A stretch of DNA of 45,720 bases from a virus. The position numbers were made by a program, and so were the translations under genes. This document shows, in pieces, positions 6,799 to 24,089 of the stretch (its first letter is position 1; the number at the start of each line of letters is the position of its first letter). The stretch is taken from the IMG/VR virus record IMGVR_UViG_3300037321_000056, positions 1-45,720 of that record; one strand, written 5' to 3'. The notes below the pieces were generated by a model. That model searched no databases. It saw only the letters and a program-made list of their open reading frames with translations, and had not been told where the DNA came from.

Positions 6799-8289
6799 AT
6801 GACAGAAACATTTTTAAATACAGTTGTTCGAGGTGACAATATCCTAGAACGATACTTAGATGGTAATAATGAGGAACAGGTACGAAAAGTTCCGTATAAG
6901 CCGTCATTATTCTTTAATAGTAAGGATGAAACTAACTATAAAGATATTTATGGCAATTATGTAATGCGAAAGAAATATGATTCATTAGTTGATGCCAGAG
7001 AAGCCAGAAAGAGTTATGACGGCGTTCATGGTGCATCTGTATTAGGTATGGATAACTTTGGCTATGCGTATATGTCAGACACATATAATGATATGAAACC
7101 GGATATGAAAAATGTTCGAATAGCTATAGTCGATATTGAGGTCACAGCCCCATGTTTCCCTTCGCCAATAGTAGCTATCTGGGAAATAGATGCGATAACT
7201 CACTATGATTATCTTGAAGACCAATTCTATACTTGGGGTTGTGGTGAGTGGTGTCGAGAGAAATCGGTTCTACCAGAAGAAATATTAAACAAGTTAACAT
7301 ATTTTCGCTGTACATCCGAAAAGGATATGCTGATTAAGTATTTACAATTTTGGGCAGAAAATCCACCTGTTATTATTAGTGGCTGGAATTCTAAGTTTTT
7401 CGATACTCCATATATTTACCAAAGAATTTTAAAGGTGTTGGGTGAAACCAATGTAAGAAGATTGTCACCGTGGAAGATTGTTCGATGTGTTGAAGGTGCG
7501 GATGCTTATCATAATGATACTATTAGTATTGATATCCTTGGTGTTTGTGAGTTAGATTATATTAAACTGTATAGAAAATTCGTATTAGAGCCTAGAGTAA
7601 GTTATAAATTAGACAGCATTGGTGAGATTGAAGTTGGTCAAAAGAAAATTGATTTTTCGGAATATAAAAACTTAGCAGATCTGAAAGCTCGTAATCATCA
7701 ATTGTATATAGATTATAATATCGGTGATGTTGATTTGGTATTTAGAATTGACGGCGCTAGAAATTTGTTTAACTTGGCAATCAATATAGCATACTATGCA
7801 AAGATTAATTTTGATGATGTATTTTCTCCAATACGAACGTGGGATGCAATATTGTTTAACTCATTGCGTCAGCAAAATATAGTTATTCCTGAAAAAGTAC
7901 AGCACCCAAAAGAAAGATTTATGGGTGCTTGGGTTAAAGAACCTAACGGCGGCGCGGGTGGACTATTTGAGTCTATCCTAAGTGTGGATTTAGAATCACT
8001 GTATCCATGTGTTATAATGCAATGGAATATTAGCCCAGAAACCATAGTAGAAGAATTTCATCCACAGCCGATACAAAAATGGGTTGATGGGACGGCTAAA
8101 TTTGATACCAATGATTTATCGTGTAACCCAAATGGTGTTAGGTATTCAAAAACTAAACGAGGTGTTATACCTATAGAAATTGAAAAGGTATTTAAACAGC
8201 GTAAGCATCATAAAAAATTAAATCAACAATACGCACAAGAATTATTGTTAATTGATAAAGAGATTGAACGAAGAGGGTTAAAGGTATGA
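6799..8289 (+). CDS. 43A: DNA polymerase, N-terminal piece (gp43A): exonuclease domain and first half of polymerase domain
   Basis: Family B replicative polymerase of the T4/RB69 type. The 3'-5' exonuclease motifs are present: V-D-I-E-V, G-W-N-S-K-F-F-D and Y-N-x-x-D-x-x-L-V. Palm motif A follows as S-V-D-L-E-S-L-Y-P. The chain ends in the fingers after Q-R-K-H-H-K-K-L, 496 residues into a protein that would be about 860-900. Motif B and motif C are in the separate genes at 9782 and 10819. A split in the fingers is known in some T4-like Aeromonas phages (gp43A/gp43B), so this is probably a functional two-chain arrangement. The stop overlaps the next ATG. Confidence 0.93.
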   Translation: MTETFLNTVVRGDNILERYLDGNNEEQVRKVPYKPSLFFNSKDETNYKDIYGNYVMRKKYDSLVDAREARKSYDGVHGASVLGMDNFGYAYMSDTYNDMKPDMKNVRIAIVDIEVTAPCFPSPIVAIWEIDAITHYDYLEDQFYTWGCGEWCREKSVLPEEILNKLTYFRCTSEKDMLIKYLQFWAENPPVIISGWNSKFFDTPYIYQRILKVLGETNVRRLSPWKIVRCVEGADAYHNDTISIDILGVCELDYIKLYRKFVLEPRVSYKLDSIGEIEVGQKKIDFSEYKNLADLKARNHQLYIDYNIGDVDLVFRIDGARNLFNLAINIAYYAKINFDDVFSPIRTWDAILFNSLRQQNIVIPEKVQHPKERFMGAWVKEPNGGAGGLFESILSVDLESLYPCVIMQWNISPETIVEEFHPQPIQKWVDGTAKFDTNDLSCNPNGVRYSKTKRGVIPIEIEKVFKQRKHHKKLNQQYAQELLLIDKEIERRGLKV

Positions 8290-8624
8290 GTAGGTCATTT
8301 GAAGAATTATGTAACATGAAGGCTGGTGAATTTTATTGGGAAAATACACAGCAAGGTAGTATACTGTTCATGGTGGAATCACTCCCAGAGATAATAACCA
8401 CTTCTACTAGACAGGTTGTTTGGTATGGGGTGTGTGTAGACCCACTATTTAGAAATGTCTGGATGGGTCGATTTTTAGCAACCGAAAAATACATGCATTA
8501 TGCTCCCAGAATTAGTAATAATGCAGAGTATATTAATGTTAGTAAACTTGAAAAGTACGAAACCGAACCACTTAAAAAACTTATAATGGAGAACCAAGAT
8601 GTCGAATACACCAGCAAATACTAG
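8286..8624 (+). CDS. Hypothetical protein in the gp43A-gp43B insert (112 aa)
   Basis: Soluble, Trp/Tyr-rich 112-residue protein, unrecognised. Its ATG overlaps the gp43A stop (ATGA), and its end overlaps the next gene by 26 bases, so it is translated as part of the polymerase operon. First of five genes that separate the two polymerase halves. Confidence 0.7.
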   Translation: MSRSFEELCNMKAGEFYWENTQQGSILFMVESLPEIITTSTRQVVWYGVCVDPLFRNVWMGRFLATEKYMHYAPRISNNAEYINVSKLEKYETEPLKKLIMENQDVEYTSKY

Positions 8625-8814
8625 AACCTTATCACCCTCAGAAGCACTTTTTGGATTTTGTGGATGGTTAACTACCAGAGATAAAATTACCCGAATGGGG
8701 TTAGTTTGTGAATGTTCAGAAATACCAGATCTAATAGTGGAATTCTGTGAATTTAATAATCTACCAATGCCCGAACACGATTGGCATAAAAATTTAAATC
8801 ATCCAAAAGAGTAA
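8599..8814 (+). CDS. Small conserved phage protein with GFCGWLTTR motif (71 aa)
   Basis: The core L-S-P-S-E-A-L-F-G-F-C-G-W-L-T-T-R and C-terminal L-P-x-P-x-x-D-W-H-K-N-L-x-H-P resemble a small uncharacterised protein family that I recall from many unrelated phages. No known function. It overlaps the preceding gene; an AAGATG context precedes the ATG. It is directly upstream of the holin-like gene. Confidence 0.75.
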   Translation: MSNTPANTRTLSPSEALFGFCGWLTTRDKITRMGLVCECSEIPDLIVEFCEFNNLPMPEHDWHKNLNHPKE

Positions 8815-8818
8815 AATG

Positions 8819-8826
8819 TCTAAATA
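8819..8826 (+). promoter_or_regulatory. Near-consensus late promoter (TCTAAATA)
   Basis: Differs from the T4 late promoter TATAAATA at one position and lies 27 bases before the holin-like gene. It would allow the lysis-like genes to be expressed late although they sit inside the early polymerase locus. Single-mismatch matches are common in AT-rich DNA, so this is tentative. Confidence 0.35.
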
Positions 8827-8852
8827 GTAATCAACCCAATAGAGGAATTACT

Positions 8853-9113
8853 ATGTTTGTAGAACATTTTCGAAAAGATGATAATGATAAAAATAAGATT
8901 AGCCGAAACGTATTTTTCACATCATCATTAATTTATATAACGATGTTGACGGCTTTTATAGTCGGCTGGTTTATGAATTTGGATACTAGGGATCTGAGTG
9001 CAGTTCTAATAAGTATTACAACTTCATACGTTACAATCGCATCGTGGTATGTAAAATCTACCAAAGATAAAGAAATAGAAGAAATAAGGACAAAATCAAA
9101 TGCTAAATTTTAA
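8853..9113 (+). CDS. Holin-like small membrane protein (86 aa)
   Basis: Two predicted membrane helices (about residues 20-42 and 47-66), a charged N-terminus and a basic, Lys-rich C-terminal tail: the layout of a class II holin. It has a GAGG ribosome site and overlaps the inner-spanin gene by 14 bases. The gene order with the spanin pair is the main argument for a lysis role. No endolysin is seen in the window, so it could instead be an unrelated membrane protein. Confidence 0.6.
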   Translation: MFVEHFRKDDNDKNKISRNVFFTSSLIYITMLTAFIVGWFMNLDTRDLSAVLISITTSYVTIASWYVKSTKDKEIEEIRTKSNAKF

Positions 9114-9528
9114 TCCATTAACTAAAGTTACAGGGTTTTTCAGTGCTAAGGTATTATTGGTTATAGCTGTTTGTGGTTTTACTGCATCTTCAGCTATAAT
9201 ATATTACCAGAAGGTACAAAAAGCTGGTCTTAGGCAAGATATTATAGAACTTAATAATCAAATTGTTGCCAGTAAAGCATCATATGTGATGTGTTTAGGT
9301 CAAATTGATATTATCTCAAAAGACCACAATGATCAGTTGCTAAAACAAGTTGAACAGAGTAAACTTAATAATCAGAAGTTGAAAAACGAGATTAATGCAC
9401 TAATCAATGACACATTACTTGAATCTAATAAGAAACTGAATAAAGTTAAAGGCGTTGTTGAAAAATACGATTGGAGTAAAGAATCTCCACCGGAAGAAAT
9501 ACTAGGGATGATTAATGAAAAATCTTAG
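9100..9528 (+). CDS. Rz-like inner-membrane spanin
   Basis: One N-terminal membrane helix (about residues 16-36), then an extended, Asn/Lys/Gln-rich, coiled-coil periplasmic region, the typical i-spanin form. It overlaps the lipoprotein gene at 9515 by 14 bases in a different frame, the classical Rz/Rz1 relationship. With its partner it would fuse inner and outer membranes in the last step of lysis of a Gram-negative cell. Spanins have little sequence conservation, so the call rests on architecture. Confidence 0.75.
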   Translation: MLNFNPLTKVTGFFSAKVLLVIAVCGFTASSAIIYYQKVQKAGLRQDIIELNNQIVASKASYVMCLGQIDIISKDHNDQLLKQVEQSKLNNQKLKNEINALINDTLLESNKKLNKVKGVVEKYDWSKESPPEEILGMINEKS

Positions 9529-9772
9529 TGTAATATTATTAACTCTATTTATTACCGCATGTAGTAGTACACCATCTGTAATAACTGAAACTAAAATTAA
9601 ATACGTTGATCGTATTGTATTAGAAGAAAAAACGATTTGCTGTAATTGTACTCCGATTCCACTATGTGAATATGAATCAGCAATTACAACAAATGGTGAA
9701 CTAGCATCAACTTACGTTTGCTTGTTAGAACAAAAAAAGCTTGAAAATCGATTAAAATTACAATGTAAATAG
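9515..9772 (+). CDS. Rz1-like outer-membrane spanin lipoprotein
   Basis: A signal peptide ends in the lipobox I-T-A-C with the lipidated Cys at residue 16, followed by S-S-T-P, which suits outer-membrane sorting. The mature part is about 70 residues and has several more cysteines (C-C-N-C and later ones), possibly disulphide-linked. The start lies inside the i-spanin gene, with ribosome site AGGG. This pair points to a Gram-negative host. Confidence 0.78.
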   Translation: MKNLSVILLTLFITACSSTPSVITETKIKYVDRIVLEEKTICCNCTPIPLCEYESAITTNGELASTYVCLLEQKKLENRLKLQCK

Positions 9773-9781
9773 AGGTATATT

Positions 9782-10414
9782 TTGAATTATACAGACTTAT
9801 CGGACGCTGATTTATTAGCCTTGAGAGCAAAGACTAAGCAAGATGTTTCAATTGAACATATCAATCAACACGCCAGAAAGATTTTAATCAATGCACTTTA
9901 TGGGTCAGTTGGGAATAGATTTTTTAGATATTACAGCTTAGATAATGCAAAAGCCGTTACGATGGGCGGTCAGTTAGCCACACGATGGGCGCAGAGGGAA
10001 CTTAATAGTTATCTTAATAGGTTGTTCAAGACCGATACGGATTATGTCATATACGGCGATACGGATAGTGTAATTGGGTCTACGATAATAAAAGTAAATG
10101 GTGAAAATACTAGCATTGAAAATTACTACAATGATCTACCAGAAAATTTTATTAAAAATGATGTAATTGGTCATGATTACGTAAAATATGGTGAGGGTGA
10201 ATCTTTATCGGTAAATCAATCCTTAGATGTTGAAAGTAAACCTATAAAATATTGCATGAAACATAAAGTTAAAAAACGTATGTTTAAAATAATTTGTGAT
10301 GGTGATGCTGTAACTGTAACAGAAGACCATTCTGTGATGGTGCTTAGATGTGGAAAATTAATAGATTGTAAGCCTACAGAAATTAAAAAAACTGATAAAA
10401 TTTTGAAATTGTAG
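9782..10414 (+). CDS. 43B: DNA polymerase middle piece (gp43B) fused to an N-terminal split intein
   Basis: Residues 1-95 continue the polymerase with motif B, K-I-L-I-N-A-L-Y-G, and the first part of motif C, Y-G-D-T-D. Residue 96 (Ser, codon 10067-10069) begins a 115-residue N-intein that has a block-B V-T-V-T-E-D-H. The chain then stops. The TTG start at 9782 has AGAGG just upstream. After trans-splicing with the product at 10819, the joined sequence would read YGDTD-SLYLSLKEL, matching the YGDTDS of RB69 gp43. The first intein residue is Ser instead of the more common Cys. Confidence 0.92.
   Translation: MNYTDLSDADLLALRAKTKQDVSIEHINQHARKILINALYGSVGNRFFRYYSLDNAKAVTMGGQLATRWAQRELNSYLNRLFKTDTDYVIYGDTDSVIGSTIIKVNGENTSIENYYNDLPENFIKNDVIGHDYVKYGEGESLSVNQSLDVESKPIKYCMKHKVKKRMFKIICDGDAVTVTEDHSVMVLRCGKLIDCKPTEIKKTDKILKL
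10067..10411 (+). mobile_element. Split intein, N-terminal half (115 aa)
   Basis: Starts at Ser after Y-G-D-T-D and runs to the stop codon. It contains an early N-G-E segment and the T-E-D-H motif that assists N-S acyl shift. Length is typical for the N-half of a split intein. It interrupts the most conserved motif of the polymerase, a common intein target in family B polymerases. Confidence 0.88.
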
Positions 10415-10440
10415 ATACTGACATAGGCGAGGAATAATAT

Positions 10441-10815
10441 ATGAAATATGAACAGCAATTTTTTAGATTTTGTGAAAGTAAAAGTAACTTAGTCGATTTG
10501 GACACATTAAATGAAATAAAGCCAAAAATCATTCAAGTGTTTAAATATTTGGATGATTGTAATTCAGTTTTAAAAAAGCAAAATACTTATAAATTAATGT
10601 ATCAAATGTTAAATTCTGGTGTTAATACGCTGATTCTCAGAAGACTTATAAAGTTAAAGCGATATGGATATGCTCAGACTAAAATAAAAACAGTTATAAA
10701 GTATGGAAAGATAATGGGTATTGAGAAGTGGAATTCTTATTTAGACCGCCAAGCGTATACGAATAGTTTAGATTATTACAAAGGTAAAGGATTCACTATA
10801 TGGAGGACTATGTAA
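10441..10815 (+). CDS. Endonuclease-like ORF between split intein halves, probably truncated (124 aa)
   Basis: Basic protein with its own AGGA ribosome site, lying between the two intein halves. The C-terminal half has R-R-L-x-K-L-K-R-Y-G-Y followed by K-Y-G-K-I-M-G and R-Q-A-Y-T-N-S-L-D-Y-Y. I recall this pattern from free-standing homing endonucleases found between split-intein gene halves ("fractured genes"). It ends just after this region, so a nuclease domain may be missing and the gene may be degenerate. Function is inferred mostly from position. Confidence 0.6.
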   Translation: MKYEQQFFRFCESKSNLVDLDTLNEIKPKIIQVFKYLDDCNSVLKKQNTYKLMYQMLNSGVNTLILRRLIKLKRYGYAQTKIKTVIKYGKIMGIEKWNSYLDRQAYTNSLDYYKGKGFTIWRTM

Positions 10816-10818
10816 CCT

Positions 10819-10935
10819 ATGAAAATTTATAGTGATTTTGAAATTGTAGATTTGGGTATTCAAGAAGTTGAAGTTTATGATATAGAAGTTGAAGATAATC
10901 ATAATTTTTTTGCTAATGATATACTTGTACACAAT
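10819..10935 (+). mobile_element. Split intein, C-terminal half (39 aa)
   Basis: Ends in His-Asn followed by Ser (TCG at 10936-10938), which supplies the nucleophile for the second splicing step. Length matches usual C-halves of 35-40 residues. All residues needed for splicing appear present, so I infer an active trans-splicing intein. Confidence 0.88.
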
Positions 10936-11736
10936 TCGTTATATCTATCATTAAAGGAATTAACTGATAGGTTTCCCAATAAGACTGAAGACGAAATGGT
11001 TGATGTCTTGGATAAGTTTTATGAAACTAAACTTAAACCTGTAATCGACAACGGTTATGTTGATTTATCTAATTATGTAAATGCCTTTGATAATAAGATG
11101 AAAATGGATCGTGAGGTTATTGCTACGCGCGGTTTATGGACTGACAAAATGAAACGATATGCTCTATGGGTAAAGGATAACGAAGGATTGAGAAAGGACA
11201 AGCTCAAAATTTTGGGATTGGAAACTCAAAGTTCAACTACGCCGCGCGCCGTTGTATCTGCATTAACTCATTGCATAAAACTTATACTGACTAAAACCGA
11301 ATCGGATTTGCAAGATTATGTTGAACAATTCAGCAAAGAGTTTAGGAATATTAGTTATCTAAAAATGGCTAAAGTTTCAACGGTTAATAATATTGCAAAA
11401 TATTCAGACTCTGAAGGTAATGCTATAAAAGGTACGCTTGGGCAAATTAAGCCGGTGTTAATTTATAATAAATTAGCGGTAATTCATGGTTTTGATAAAA
11501 TACAGGAGGGTGAGAAAGTTGCAATAATTCCTTTAATTAAGCCTAATAAATATCAAGTTGAAACTATGGGGTATCCCAGTGGTTCAGAGTTGCCGATAGA
11601 AATCCGTGAATATTGTATTAGTAAAATGGACTATAACTTATTATGGGATAAAATGTTTATTAAGCCATTAATGAATATATGCAATGCGATAAAATTCAAC
11701 CCAGAGAAAACTTTCTCTATTGATGATTTTATGTAA
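10819..11736 (+). CDS. 43C: C-terminal split intein fused to DNA polymerase C-terminal piece (gp43C)
   Basis: Residues 1-39 are a C-intein with V-Y-D-I-E-V, N-H-N-F-F-A-N-D and terminal V-H-N; residue 40 is the +1 Ser. Residues 40-305 are the rest of the palm and thumb: S-L-Y-L-S-L, then D-R-E-V-I-A-T-R-G-L-W, K-R-Y-A-L, L-K-I-L-G-L-E-T-Q-S-S-T-P, N-N-I-A-K-Y and W-P/Y-P-S-G-S-E. The C-terminal F-S-I-D-D-F-M resembles the clamp-binding tail of gp43. Total polymerase from the three genes after splicing is about 857 residues, a normal T4-type size. Confidence 0.93.
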   Translation: MKIYSDFEIVDLGIQEVEVYDIEVEDNHNFFANDILVHNSLYLSLKELTDRFPNKTEDEMVDVLDKFYETKLKPVIDNGYVDLSNYVNAFDNKMKMDREVIATRGLWTDKMKRYALWVKDNEGLRKDKLKILGLETQSSTTPRAVVSALTHCIKLILTKTESDLQDYVEQFSKEFRNISYLKMAKVSTVNNIAKYSDSEGNAIKGTLGQIKPVLIYNKLAVIHGFDKIQEGEKVAIIPLIKPNKYQVETMGYPSGSELPIEIREYCISKMDYNLLWDKMFIKPLMNICNAIKFNPEKTFSIDDFM

Positions 11737-19511: not shown

Positions 19512-19519
19512 TATAAATA
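19512..19519 (+). promoter_or_regulatory. T4-type late promoter TATAAATA
   Basis: Exact match to the T4 late promoter. Only 5 bases separate it from the ATG of the next gene, so transcription from the usual distance would start at or next to the A of the start codon, giving a leaderless or nearly leaderless mRNA. It heads the capsid-targeting-motif gene group. Confidence 0.75.
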
Positions 19520-19524
19520 TAAGT

Positions 19525-19989
19525 ATGAAAACATACAAACAATTTATATCAGAGAAAAATGACGGCACATATGTTGCCGTTAGGTTTTCTGACGAATCTA
19601 ATAAAAAACTAAAAGCGTATGCTGAATCATTGAACCTTAAACCCATTAAGGACTTTCATGCGACCATAGTATACTCACCAACTACCTTAGACGTACCTAT
19701 TGGCGATACGTCATTCAATACTACTCTTATACCTAAGTCACTAAAATATCTTGGTGAGGTCGGTAATAAGTATCGTGCATTGGCTTTAGTCGTGCATTCC
19801 GATGATCTTCAAACTAGATATGACTATTATGTTGATAAAAAGAACTTTAAAAGTCGATTTAATTCATACATACAACACATTAGTTTAGCATACCAGCCAA
19901 GTGAAGGTATAAATATAAATGAACTACCGTTACCTGACTTCGAAATAGAAGTAATTAATGAGCGCGTAGAAAAATTAAATAGTGGGTAG
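19525..19989 (+). CDS. acb1: Acb1-like 2H phosphoesterase with capsid-targeting N-terminus
   Basis: Two H-x-[TS] motifs, H45-A-T47 and H118-I-S120, define the 2H phosphoesterase fold. Size (154) and motif spacing match T4 57B/Acb1 (152 residues, His44/Thr46 and His113/Thr115), which degrades the cyclic nucleotides of CBASS anti-phage defence. The first ten residues, M-K-T-Y-K-Q-F-I-S-E, closely match the T4 internal-protein capsid-targeting sequence M-K-T-Y-Q-E-F-I-A-E, including the I-x-E gp21 cleavage site. Together with the late promoter, this suggests a packaged, injected anti-CBASS enzyme. RNA processing is an alternative for the fold. Confidence 0.82.
   Translation: MKTYKQFISEKNDGTYVAVRFSDESNKKLKAYAESLNLKPIKDFHATIVYSPTTLDVPIGDTSFNTTLIPKSLKYLGEVGNKYRALALVVHSDDLQTRYDYYVDKKNFKSRFNSYIQHISLAYQPSEGININELPLPDFEIEVINERVEKLNSG
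19908..19915 (+). promoter_or_regulatory. T4-type late promoter TATAAATA inside the acb1-like gene
   Basis: Exact match, 78 bases upstream of the start of the gene at 19993. Coding constraint could produce it by chance, but it points to the next members of the same group and is therefore likely real. Confidence 0.5.
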
Positions 19990-19992
19990 TAT

Positions 19993-20427
19993 ATGAAATC
20001 TTTTTCTGAATACGTAGAAAGTAAAATAAAAATACCCAAAGGAAATTTAGGCATTCTTAGAAAAAATATGCCACAAATTAAATCTAATCATGTTCCAGAG
20101 TTTATGAAATGGTTGAAAACATTCGGCGTTTCTATGATAACTAAAAGTGTAGCAATTAAGACACTAAAAATGACTCAAAAAGAAGTTAGTATGGATAAAA
20201 TTTTAGGTATGATAAACGATGCCCCAGAGGAATCACTTAGCAAGCCGATAATTCTATCTTCGGATAATTATATATTGGATGGACATCATAGATTCGTTGC
20301 ATTATATAACAAAAATAAAAATATTAAATTGACTGTATATCAGGTGAATGTTAAAATAGATGCCTTATTAGAGTTAGCGCATAAATTTCCAAAGGCAATA
20401 AAACAGGGCATAAATGAAAACGTTTAA
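19993..20427 (+). CDS. ParB/sulfiredoxin-fold protein with capsid-targeting-like N-terminus (144 aa)
   Basis: Begins M-K-S-F-S-E-Y-V-E-S, similar to the capsid-targeting motif of its neighbours but without a clear [LI]-x-E site. The central part has the ParB/Srx signature: K-P-I-I-L-S-S-D-N-Y-I-L-D-G-H-H-R-F-V-A-L. This fold includes DNA-binding ParB, nucleases and kinases; activity here is not predictable. It overlaps the next gene by 14 bases. Likely delivered with the phage DNA or part of the head interior. Confidence 0.78.
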   Translation: MKSFSEYVESKIKIPKGNLGILRKNMPQIKSNHVPEFMKWLKTFGVSMITKSVAIKTLKMTQKEVSMDKILGMINDAPEESLSKPIILSSDNYILDGHHRFVALYNKNKNIKLTVYQVNVKIDALLELAHKFPKAIKQGINENV

Positions 20428-20941
20428 AGAGTATTTACTAGATGAAAGTGTTGGTTTAAAGATATACGTAGATATGGATGGAGTCGTTGCCGATTTTGTT
20501 GAATATATGGAATCTGTAACTGGTGAAAAAATTGATCAGTTAACTAAAGATGATGTTGCATTTAAAAAACTTAAACAAAAATTGACGGCTGGTGACTTCT
20601 TTTCAAAATTGAAGCCAATGAAGGGATTAAAATTACTTAAAGACTTTCAGGCGGCTGGTGTCGATTATGAAATACTATCAAGTGTTGGTAAATTTAATTC
20701 TGCAAATGTTGCAAATCAAAAAAAGGCATGGCTTAAAAAACACTTGGGATTTGCCCCAAAATTTAATTACACGACATCTAGTGTGGATAAAGTTAAATAT
20801 GCTAAACCTAATACTGTCTTGATTGACGATAGAACTAAAAGTACTAGTCCCTTTAAATCTGCTGGCGGTCAAGTTATATTGCACAAGACATACGAAGATA
20901 CAAAGAAAAAGATAGACAAATTATTAAAGGATCATAACTAA
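20414..20941 (+). CDS. HAD-family phosphatase, 5'-nucleotidase-like, with capsid-targeting-like N-terminus (175 aa)
   Basis: N-terminus M-K-T-F-K-E-Y-L-L-D-E carries an L-x-E cleavage-type site at residue 11. HAD motif I follows directly as D-M-D-G-V-V-A-D-F; a later V-L-I-D-D-R-T-K-S is motif IV. This is the layout of 5'(3')-deoxyribonucleotidase-like enzymes. Candidate substrates are nucleotides or phosphorylated ends. Its stop overlaps the ATG of the next gene. Confidence 0.8.
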   Translation: MKTFKEYLLDESVGLKIYVDMDGVVADFVEYMESVTGEKIDQLTKDDVAFKKLKQKLTAGDFFSKLKPMKGLKLLKDFQAAGVDYEILSSVGKFNSANVANQKKAWLKKHLGFAPKFNYTTSSVDKVKYAKPNTVLIDDRTKSTSPFKSAGGQVILHKTYEDTKKKIDKLLKDHN

Positions 20942-21924
20942 TGAAAGAGTTCAACCAATTTATTTGCGAAATGAATATACTGCAAGAAAAGCTGATAACG
21001 TTCGGAAAAAAAGCATATCCTAAATTCGGTAATGTCGTTATTCTAGCTGGCGGTGCTGGTAGTGGAAAGGGCTTTACTGCTGAACACTTAATGGGTATTG
21101 AAGGTAGAACTTTTGACGTAGATGCTGTTAAGAAACTGGTTCAGGCATCTGTATTGGTCGCCAAAGCGATTAAAGCTGAATTTGGTGTAGATGTTAAAAC
21201 CCTATCACTTAAAAATCCAGATAATGTTTCTAAGTTGCATGCACTATTAAAGAGTACTCGATTCTTAGATGGTAATCAAAAAGCATTTTTTAGTAATTTA
21301 GAAAATATCCCATTATTAGCCGACAAGGGTGCTGGTGGAACTAAGGGTGCTGAAGGTAGAAAGCCTAATATGATATTTGATGTAACTTTAAAGGATATAG
21401 ATAAGTTAAAGACTATATCTAAGTCAGTTATGGATCTAGGATATGCCAAAGAAAATATTCACATTGTTTGGGTTTTAAATGACATAGAAATGGCAAAAAC
21501 GCAAAATCAAAAACGTGATAGAGTAGTACCAGCCGATATATTACTAGATACCCATATTGGAGCTAATCAAACATTTAAAGATTTAATTAGTCGTAGTTCA
21601 AATTTGAGATCTTACATGGATGGTGATGTATGGATTAGTTTCAATAAATTTAAAGTTGACTCAACTCTAATAAATGCCCAAAGTAAGGAAGATTCTGTAA
21701 TGTGGAAGGGTGCAGAACGCCTAATAACTAAAGTTGGTGATGATGAACGTGTACAATCAAATGTGTTTAAAACTAAAACTAGTGGTAATGGTATGTTTAT
21801 TCCTCAGTCGTTTTTTGTTAAAGTAAAAGAACAAGGTAAATCGACTAGAGGTAAGCGAGATATTTCAAGGGCATCAATTCGAAAAATTAAAGAATATGTT
21901 CCAAATCCTGAAGCTTGGGATTAA
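20941..21924 (+). CDS. Zeta-toxin-like P-loop kinase with capsid-targeting-like N-terminus (327 aa)
   Basis: Starts M-K-E-F-N-Q-F-I-C-E-M-N-I-L-Q-E, with two possible gp21 sites (I-C-E and L-Q-E). Then a P-loop, L-A-G-G-A-G-S-G-K-G-F (about residues 35-45), and later R-D-R-V-V-P-A-D, typical of zeta-toxin-type kinases, which phosphorylate UDP-activated sugars or other small molecules. The C-terminal third, with S-G-N-G-M-F-I-P-Q-S-F, is unassigned. If injected it would act on the host immediately after infection. No epsilon-like antitoxin is obvious next to it. Confidence 0.75.
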   Translation: MKEFNQFICEMNILQEKLITFGKKAYPKFGNVVILAGGAGSGKGFTAEHLMGIEGRTFDVDAVKKLVQASVLVAKAIKAEFGVDVKTLSLKNPDNVSKLHALLKSTRFLDGNQKAFFSNLENIPLLADKGAGGTKGAEGRKPNMIFDVTLKDIDKLKTISKSVMDLGYAKENIHIVWVLNDIEMAKTQNQKRDRVVPADILLDTHIGANQTFKDLISRSSNLRSYMDGDVWISFNKFKVDSTLINAQSKEDSVMWKGAERLITKVGDDERVQSNVFKTKTSGNGMFIPQSFFVKVKEQGKSTRGKRDISRASIRKIKEYVPNPEAWD

Positions 21925-21936
21925 TAGGAGAAATTT

Positions 21937-22146
21937 ATGTTATCAAATGTTAATAATAAAACAGATTATCAAGTTTTTCAAATGTTTAAAAACTTGTATG
22001 AAACTTATATGAGTGCCAGTGAAAATGACCGAAGGGTATTTCATGATAATGATATGGAAGTAATTCTTGAAAGATTGGGTAATGTTGATTATTTGGGTAA
22101 TAGATTTACCCTAGTTAATGAATCTATAGTTGTAACTAAACTATGA
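21937..22146 (+). CDS. Hypothetical protein (69 aa)
   Basis: Acidic helical small protein with AGGAG ribosome site; its stop overlaps the next ATG (ATGA). No capsid-targeting motif. Position after the zeta-like gene would suit a regulator or antitoxin, but I have no sequence evidence for that. Confidence 0.6.
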   Translation: MLSNVNNKTDYQVFQMFKNLYETYMSASENDRRVFHDNDMEVILERLGNVDYLGNRFTLVNESIVVTKL

Positions 22147-22556
22147 TTGCTGGCGATTCTGGTGGCGATCCAAACGCAATTGCATCTGGCACTAACTCTG
22201 GGTCTGTGGTACTTGTACCGGACGGTCTTAAAAAGAAAAAACGTAAACCTATAAAAACCTTTAAAGAATTTAAAAACTCTAATATAGTTGAGCGTTGGAA
22301 TCCATTTTCGGATTTAGATAACTACAAATTATCAAAGTTTTTTATGGGTACTGGTAAATCTAAAGATGCTGTCAATTTATTCGACAAAATGACCCAACGA
22401 TATCGCGCCGGAAAATGGGAATTTAGTAAAACCCCATTACAAACACTCGCGGATATTACGGATATTAAGATTAAACTTCTGATATTCGATCTAAAGGCGG
22501 CTGGCTACTCTGACAAGCAAATAAATATCGGCAAAGACAAAGTAAAATTTAATTAA
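22143..22556 (+). CDS. Basic protein with Gly/Ser-rich N-terminus and internal capsid-targeting-like motif (137 aa)
   Basis: Residues 1-28 are low-complexity Gly/Ser/Asp; then K-K-K-K-R-K and I-K-T-F-K-E-F-K-N-S-N-I-V-E, an internal version of the motif seen at the N-termini of the neighbours, with an I-x-E site. The C-terminal half is helical and basic. It resembles a head-interior or prohead core type of protein in composition. Function unknown. Confidence 0.65.
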   Translation: MIAGDSGGDPNAIASGTNSGSVVLVPDGLKKKKRKPIKTFKEFKNSNIVERWNPFSDLDNYKLSKFFMGTGKSKDAVNLFDKMTQRYRAGKWEFSKTPLQTLADITDIKIKLLIFDLKAAGYSDKQINIGKDKVKFN

Positions 22557-23678: not shown

Positions 23679-24089
23679 TTGAAAGATTTAGCATTAAGAA
23701 TTGTCACTGAAGAATTTAAGGGCGCTGTCGATAAAGCTGGCGCACCTTACATTGACCATTTGATTGCAGTAGCTTCTAAGTTTGATGATGAAATAAAATA
23801 TACAGTTGGTTTGTTGCATGACTTGTTGGAAGATACTGATTACACTGTTGAGAAATTGAGCGAGTTATTTCCAAAAGTTGTTGTTGATGCGGTTGTTGCA
23901 ATTACTAAAGTTCGTGGTGAGAAATACAGCGAATACATTGCGCGCGTTAAAGCCAACCCAGTTGCTAATGTCGTTAAGATTGCCGACATTGCCCATAACT
24001 GTGACTTGACTCGTTTAAGTGTTGTCACTGACAAAGATTTGAAACGAGTTGAAAAATACAAAAAGACGGTTATTGAATTAACAAGTTAA
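23679..24089 (+). CDS. HD-domain phosphohydrolase, SpoT/MESH1-like (136 aa)
   Basis: TTG start with GAGAGAGG upstream. HD motifs: H27 in I-D-H-L, H47-D48-L-L-E51-D52-T and D103 in K-I-A-D-I-A-H-N, the order found in (p)ppGpp hydrolase domains (SpoT/MESH1). Small and single-domain, like the hydrolase antitoxins of toxSAS systems. It may degrade host alarmones or neutralise the RelA/SpoT-like product encoded at 22575. Its codon use appears less AT-biased in places (more GTT/GTC/TTG) than its neighbours. Confidence 0.82.
   Translation: MKDLALRIVTEEFKGAVDKAGAPYIDHLIAVASKFDDEIKYTVGLLHDLLEDTDYTVEKLSELFPKVVVDAVVAITKVRGEKYSEYIARVKANPVANVVKIADIAHNCDLTRLSVVTDKDLKRVEKYKKTVIELTS

Follow-up and report, generated by a model that had tools for sequence, protein, structure and literature searches.

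Does the Acb1-type enzyme encoded at positions 19525-19989 of a T4-like phage fragment act only inside the cell in which it is made, or might it be packed into the phage head and delivered into the next host with the DNA? The Acb1 family is known for destroying the cyclic nucleotides of CBASS, a bacterial alarm signal, and the first-pass annotation of this locus had proposed both an enzyme of this kind and a leader that would direct it into the capsid. The window, i.e. the whole stretch of DNA that was analysed, is a 45.7-kb IMG/VR fragment whose gene content, with its replication genes, resembles that of a T4-like phage. The gene itself (plus strand, ATG start, TAG stop, 154 aa) is a real and complete open reading frame, its stop codon lying 3 nt ahead of the next gene, and both the gene order and the leader are kept in contig G001, a 97%-identical relative. 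Neither a capsid gene (gp23) nor a prohead protease was found in the 45.7-kb window or in G001, both of which are fragments.

The octamer TATAAATA, on the plus strand at 19512-19519 and 5 nt ahead of the start codon, resembles a T4 late promoter; it is not counted as evidence here, since the octamer shows no enrichment (10 occurrences in the window, where chance predicts 14) and, spaced in this way, it would produce a leaderless mRNA. Further upstream, a family-B DNA polymerase (6799-11736) is apparently present in three pieces (6799-8289, 9782-10414 and 10819-11736); small lysis-like genes lie in the first gap, and the middle piece ends, and the last begins, with intein-like halves (YDIEVEDNHNFFANDILVHNS) that flank a possible homing endonuclease ORF. 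Downstream, the protein encoded at 30834-32480 matches phrog_1745 (E=1e-176), whose label, DNA transfer protein, is unexpected next to T4-type replication genes.

The ten-residue capsid-targeting leader (CTS) of T4 has been mapped by mutation, positions 4 and 7 being those for targeting and 8 and 10 those for processing (PMC9026906), and the gp21 protease cleaves after L/I-x-E. The leader of the 19525 gene, MKTYKQFISE (19525-19554, plus strand), keeps all four determinants, Y4 and F7 for targeting and I8 and E10 for processing, and its F-I-S-E end fits the gp21 motif, with I8-S9-E10 as the processing site. The identity of 7/10 with the T4 peptide, claimed from the first reading of the sequence, was confirmed against MKTYQEFIAE of IPII and IPIII; a composition-based simulation puts the chance of so close a match at about 5.5e-6 for any one gene and 4e-4 for 68 genes together. 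The simplest reading is that the leader is detachable from the Acb1 core, since in the AlphaFold model residues 1-10 lie outside the fold with a mean pLDDT of about 47, the FBB1 Acb1 crystal construct spans G8-D152 and so is without the leader, and the segment ahead of the core is between 4 and 32 residues long across 43 relatives, some of which have no leader. The Pfam match, likewise, begins at residue 13. Processing of the leader is less clear. The residue after E10 is Lys, where the T4 IPI-III leaders have Ala, and canonical sites of the form [ILV]xE/[AGS] (the slash marking the cut) show enrichment behind leaders in T4 (p=0.006), a weak one in contig G002 (p=0.026) and no significant one in the window, G001, G003 or G008, so that processing in the 19525 protein stays uncertain. 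The body of the protein is near-neutral (pI 6.3 versus 9.0 for mature IPI) and is devoid of the basic charge typical of the T4 internal proteins.

The leader is not confined to one gene. The pattern MK.[FY].[EQ][FY] is found in 4 of 70 window genes (19525, 19993, 20414 and 20941), all of them consecutive, where 0.011 would be expected from composition; the last three had been overlooked in the first-pass annotation. The first of these (19993-20427, plus strand, MKSFSEYVES) encodes a stand-alone ParB-like domain with a weak ParBc_2 match, below the cut-off, and among its homologues are Ackermannviridae proteins annotated as structural and a segment of a DarB-like antirestriction protein of Burkholderia phage DC1; injection is thought to apply to polyvalent proteins with ParB-like domains (PMC5512222). 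The second (20414-20941, plus strand, MKTFKEYLLDE/S) encodes an NT5C-type (HAD-type) deoxyribonucleotidase (Pfam NT5C 6.4e-10; phrog_2643 6e-38), and its leader carries a cleavage-like site, L-D-E/S. The third (20941-21924, plus strand, MKEFNQFICE) encodes a zeta-toxin-like P-loop kinase (Pfam Zeta_toxin 2.8e-5; phrog_5268 1.4e-96), the RB43 homologue of which starts MKSFKDFVSLDE/A. The ParB-like protein, nucleotidase and kinase would all fit as host-takeover cargo. A possible extra member of the island lies at 22143-22556 (plus strand; phrog_1823 3e-10), where a GDSGG module is followed by an internal KTFKEF; its T4 homologue gp61.1 (NC_000866 18966-19130) has the reverse order, a full CTS-like leader, MKTFKEFIKE, and then GDSGG, and this gp61.1 type could possibly be an unrecognised internal protein. 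Near the leader cluster, a gene at 23679-24089 encodes a small phosphohydrolase of the HD-domain type (phrog_990), similar to alarmone hydrolases of the RelA/SpoT type and without a leader. PADLOC gave no match for the seven proteins of the island region.

Considering whether this arrangement recurs, a scan of IMG/VR for Acb1 loci yielded 59 loci, in which the full CTS register is carried by 12 of 68 Acb1 ORFs as against 28 of 823 other ORFs of the same loci (p=1.5e-5, Fisher, a value that is too small, as are the other Fisher p values, because related sequences are not independent and relatedness was left uncorrected). Two of the twelve Acb1 ORFs (in L042 and L017) have doubtful upstream starts, and many of the matches among other ORFs are genes near Acb1, while some are probable chance matches. 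Leaders that can be cited as examples are MKSYKEFLTE/A (L088) and MKTYKEFVEE (FBB1). In Vibrio phage D479 (L022 3004-4919), Acb1 is followed by three genes in a row with leaders ending LTE/A, MVE/A and MVE/A, which are alike in the following residues and are probably a family of head-targeted proteins. Arrays of CTS-like genes also surround Acb1 in three further loci (L036, L043 and L045); that of L045 holds the same kinase as the window island and a HAD-type nucleotidase, and that of L043 (contig G002, about 80656-86006) comprises some eight CTS-like genes, several with I-x-E/[AG] sites. The Acb1 of Vibrio phage pv27 (L023 2417-2941) has a 20-residue leader, MKPKSFREHLNQTSTDFITE/A, which ends F-I-T-E/A and resembles the leader of T4 IPI; a search with this protein as the query returned no matches. 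A gp21-type S77 protease was found in 7 of 18 records (16 Acb1 carriers, the window and its near twin), all seven being Acb1 carriers on contigs of at least 60 kb. A recurrent link across phages between Acb1 and genes with head-targeting leaders, in the form of an island and thus broader than one tagged gene, is a well-supported hypothesis.

These counts also bear on the most serious alternative, in which the protein belongs to the Acb1 family and counters CBASS in the very cell that produces it, apparently the mode of action of T4 Acb1, and its leader reflects a common T4-like N-terminal style with no role in packaging. All that many Acb1 homologues have is a short start of the M-K-L-S-E-L type, the looser leader pattern is present on 153 of 600 other ORFs, and T4 Acb1 activity is seen only from about 15 min post infection, in step with CBASS killing, which also sets in late, so T4 itself is not obviously using injection. 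We nevertheless consider this explanation unlikely, as the full register is rare on other ORFs and the leader clusters on four consecutive window genes. In T4, M[KR].[FY]..[FY] retrieves IPI, IPII, IPIII, gp61.1 and a few others; the full register picks out just 5 of 277 T4 ORFs, IPII and IPIII among them, which likewise counts against this alternative.

The identity of the enzyme rests on profile, fold and catalytic residues. The protein matches the Pfam Acb1 family PF23474 over residues 13-152 with 67.2 bits (cut-off 27; E=1.6e-18), and a phmmer search of the PDB finds Acb1 structure 7t26 at 6.5e-6, which improves to 5.2e-43 with a profile built on 43 relatives. The AlphaFold model has a mean pLDDT of 89, with a core above 90, and Foldseek places it closest to 7t26 and 7t27, 7t26 being the best match (E=9.1e-8, TMt 0.75). 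The first catalytic motif, H45-A-T47 (19657-19665, plus strand), aligns with H44/T46 of T4 Acb1 and its H and T are invariant in 45 sequences; the second, H118-I-S120 (19876-19884, plus strand), aligns with H113/T115, the last position being T in 30 and S in 15 of the 45 sequences and never another residue. In the same alignment the residues kept with respect to T4 are Y16 (Y12), H45 (H44), T47 (T46), F112 (F107), H118 (H113), S120 (T115) and E149 (E141). That the protein is a member of the Acb1 family with an intact catalytic tetrad is thus well supported, and the initial assignment as an Acb1-like enzyme is upheld by profile, predicted fold and conserved active site alike; the accompanying claim that the motifs agree with T4 Acb1 in spacing and total length needs correcting in one part, as the length agrees (154 versus 152 aa) and the spacing is close, not equal (73 versus 69 residues).

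Two nucleobase-pocket features of T4 Acb1 are changed, W74 being replaced by Leu and the W147 lid being absent, and both changes are common in the family, with Leu at 74 in 12 and a gap at 147 in 13 of 45 sequences. With the lid tryptophan missing, the nucleotide pocket and substrate range may be altered relative to T4 Acb1. The same loss lends something to a second alternative, that the protein is no anti-CBASS enzyme and instead heals RNA ends, its 2H domain opening 2',3'-cyclic phosphates and joining the P-loop kinase and HAD phosphatase encoded next to it in repairing RNA cut by defence nucleases, possibly after delivery in the virion. 2H phosphoesterases do act in this way in RNA repair (PMC7824862, PMC9503650), and the neighbours are indeed a P-loop kinase and a HAD-type nucleotidase. 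We judge this improbable: the profile is that of Acb1, with no match to LigT or 2_5_RNA_ligase2 at E<=0.1 in either Pfam or NCBIfam, the best structural matches are Acb1, the adenine-contacting Glu is kept, the cluster is without an RNA ligase, and in Pfam the kinase matches zeta toxin, not polynucleotide kinase. As to nomenclature, the protein belongs to phrog_755 (PHROGs, 1.1e-22), which is labelled RNA ligase, and the same label is widespread on Acb1-family proteins in RefSeq phage records, T4 57B and many relatives included. It is very improbable that a protein packaged via its leader acts mainly on the packaged DNA or in head assembly, a process that T4 IPIII does influence (PMC9026906), rather than on host signalling, since a scaffold role needs no conserved catalytic 2H active site.

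Virion carriage of Acb1-type enzymes has precedent. CBB_118 of Pectobacterium phage CBB (KU574722 59615-60061, L096) scores 58.1 bits on the Acb1 profile and was detected in CBB virions by mass spectrometry through 7 unique peptides that cover 60.4% of its sequence (PMC5259590 Table 4), labelled there only as "structural protein"; this detection speaks for presence in the virion, not for injection. CBB_118 has no CTS-like leader, and since it is packaged without one, the presence of the family in virions is no proof that the leader does work. In the portal protein of cyanophage Pam3 (PDB 8hds), the Acb1 profile matches residues 488-611, with the motifs H-V-T and H-I-S, and 2H domains fused to MuF/portal proteins have been proposed to be injected against nucleotide signalling (PMC9503650). 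That proposal is the nearest found in a literature search, which returned no published claim of a virion-borne or CTS-bearing Acb1 and no virion evidence for T4 57B itself. Virion-packaged 2H domains directed against nucleotide signalling are thus already known as a proposal for MuF/portal fusions; the CTS route on a free Acb1 was not found in the literature searched.

Our preferred explanation, which we regard as probable, is that the 19525 protein acts against CBASS, is delivered by way of its CTS and belongs to an island whose products are candidates for injection. Expressed in the infected cell, its product would be a metal-independent 2H phosphoesterase of the Acb1 type that bears a T4-type capsid-targeting leader; Y4 and F7 would recruit it into the prohead core, where the prohead protease would probably cut after E10 (I-S-E); and the enzyme, enclosed with the DNA, would be injected, alongside the proteins encoded by the three genes downstream, when the next host is infected, and would there cleave adenosine-containing cyclic di- or trinucleotides and dampen CBASS signalling from the earliest minutes on. 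Family, fold, catalytic residues, leader register, clustering and recurrence on homologues were computed here, Acb1 chemistry, CTS targeting in T4 and the Acb1-family protein in CBB virions come from the literature on relatives, and from these we infer packaging, cleavage after E10, injection and the substrate. Delivery with the DNA is a well-supported hypothesis because of several independent lines of evidence, namely the full CTS register, the clustering of CTS genes, the recurrence on homologues, a leader that is dispensable for the fold and relatives in virions. Counted against it are the Lys after E10, the fragment's lack of a protease or capsid gene, the near-neutral body, the late T4 Acb1 with no clean CTS and the leaderless CBB_118. 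The advantage in timing that a pre-loaded enzyme would have, as the first-pass annotation suggested, is an argument to be handled with care because CBASS killing comes late in T4 infection.

All three T4 internal proteins whose targets are known (IPI, IPII and IPIII) block type IV restriction enzymes (PMC12373910). If the proposal is right, an Acb1-family enzyme with a head address would mean that injected counter-defence reaches beyond restriction to nucleotide second messengers, and the phage could act while the CBASS signal is still low. It would also offer a cheap route to further injected counter-defence genes, with the leader, not the body, as the search key. Now that an Acb1-family protein, CBB_118, has been detected in virions and the Pam3 portal is seen to carry such a domain, the idea can be tested on phages already available. 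More tentatively, and with a little less than even confidence, we suggest a modular island in the T4 superfamily, in which unrelated counter-defence enzymes (Acb1, ParB-like domain, nucleotidase and kinase) might each have gained the same ten-residue head address and be pre-loaded in virions, such that cyclic-nucleotide defence would be countered before any phage gene is expressed; Acb1 would then have at least three routes into virions, viz. CTS leader, portal fusion and leaderless packaging.

Among known systems, the closest enzyme is T4 Acb1 (gp57B), the founding anti-CBASS enzyme (Hobbs 2022, PMC9117128), with which the window protein shares the 2H fold, the H-x-T/H-x-[TS] tetrad, the equivalents of Y12, F107 and E141, and its length, whereas the two are only 29% identical and W74 and W147 are absent from the window protein. 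They differ also in leader, the full CTS register standing against MMEFKDFSTG in T4, and in locus, the window gene lying near replication genes and T4 acb1 (57B) by gene 57A, although 57B adjoins ipI, itself an injected-protein gene (PMC9117128). With T4 IPI, IPII and IPIII it shares a short leader, in which the targeting and processing residues agree, on a small accessory protein, but those proteins inhibit GmrSD restriction enzymes (PMC12373910) and the body here is an Acb1-family enzyme. CBB_118 is an Acb1-family protein as well, detected in virions; it comes from a jumbo Rak2-like phage and does not have the CTS-like leader of the window protein. The MuF/portal 2H fusions (PMC9503650, PMC5512222; Pam3 portal 8hds) are similarly 2H domains for which carriage in the head and action against nucleotide signalling have been proposed, yet they are covalently fused to a head protein, where the window enzyme is free-standing and begins with a short leader. 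T4 Alt, finally, is an enzyme packaged in the T4 head and injected, as the window protein is a candidate to be, but it is an ADP-ribosyltransferase that acts on RNA polymerase and has a different propeptide.
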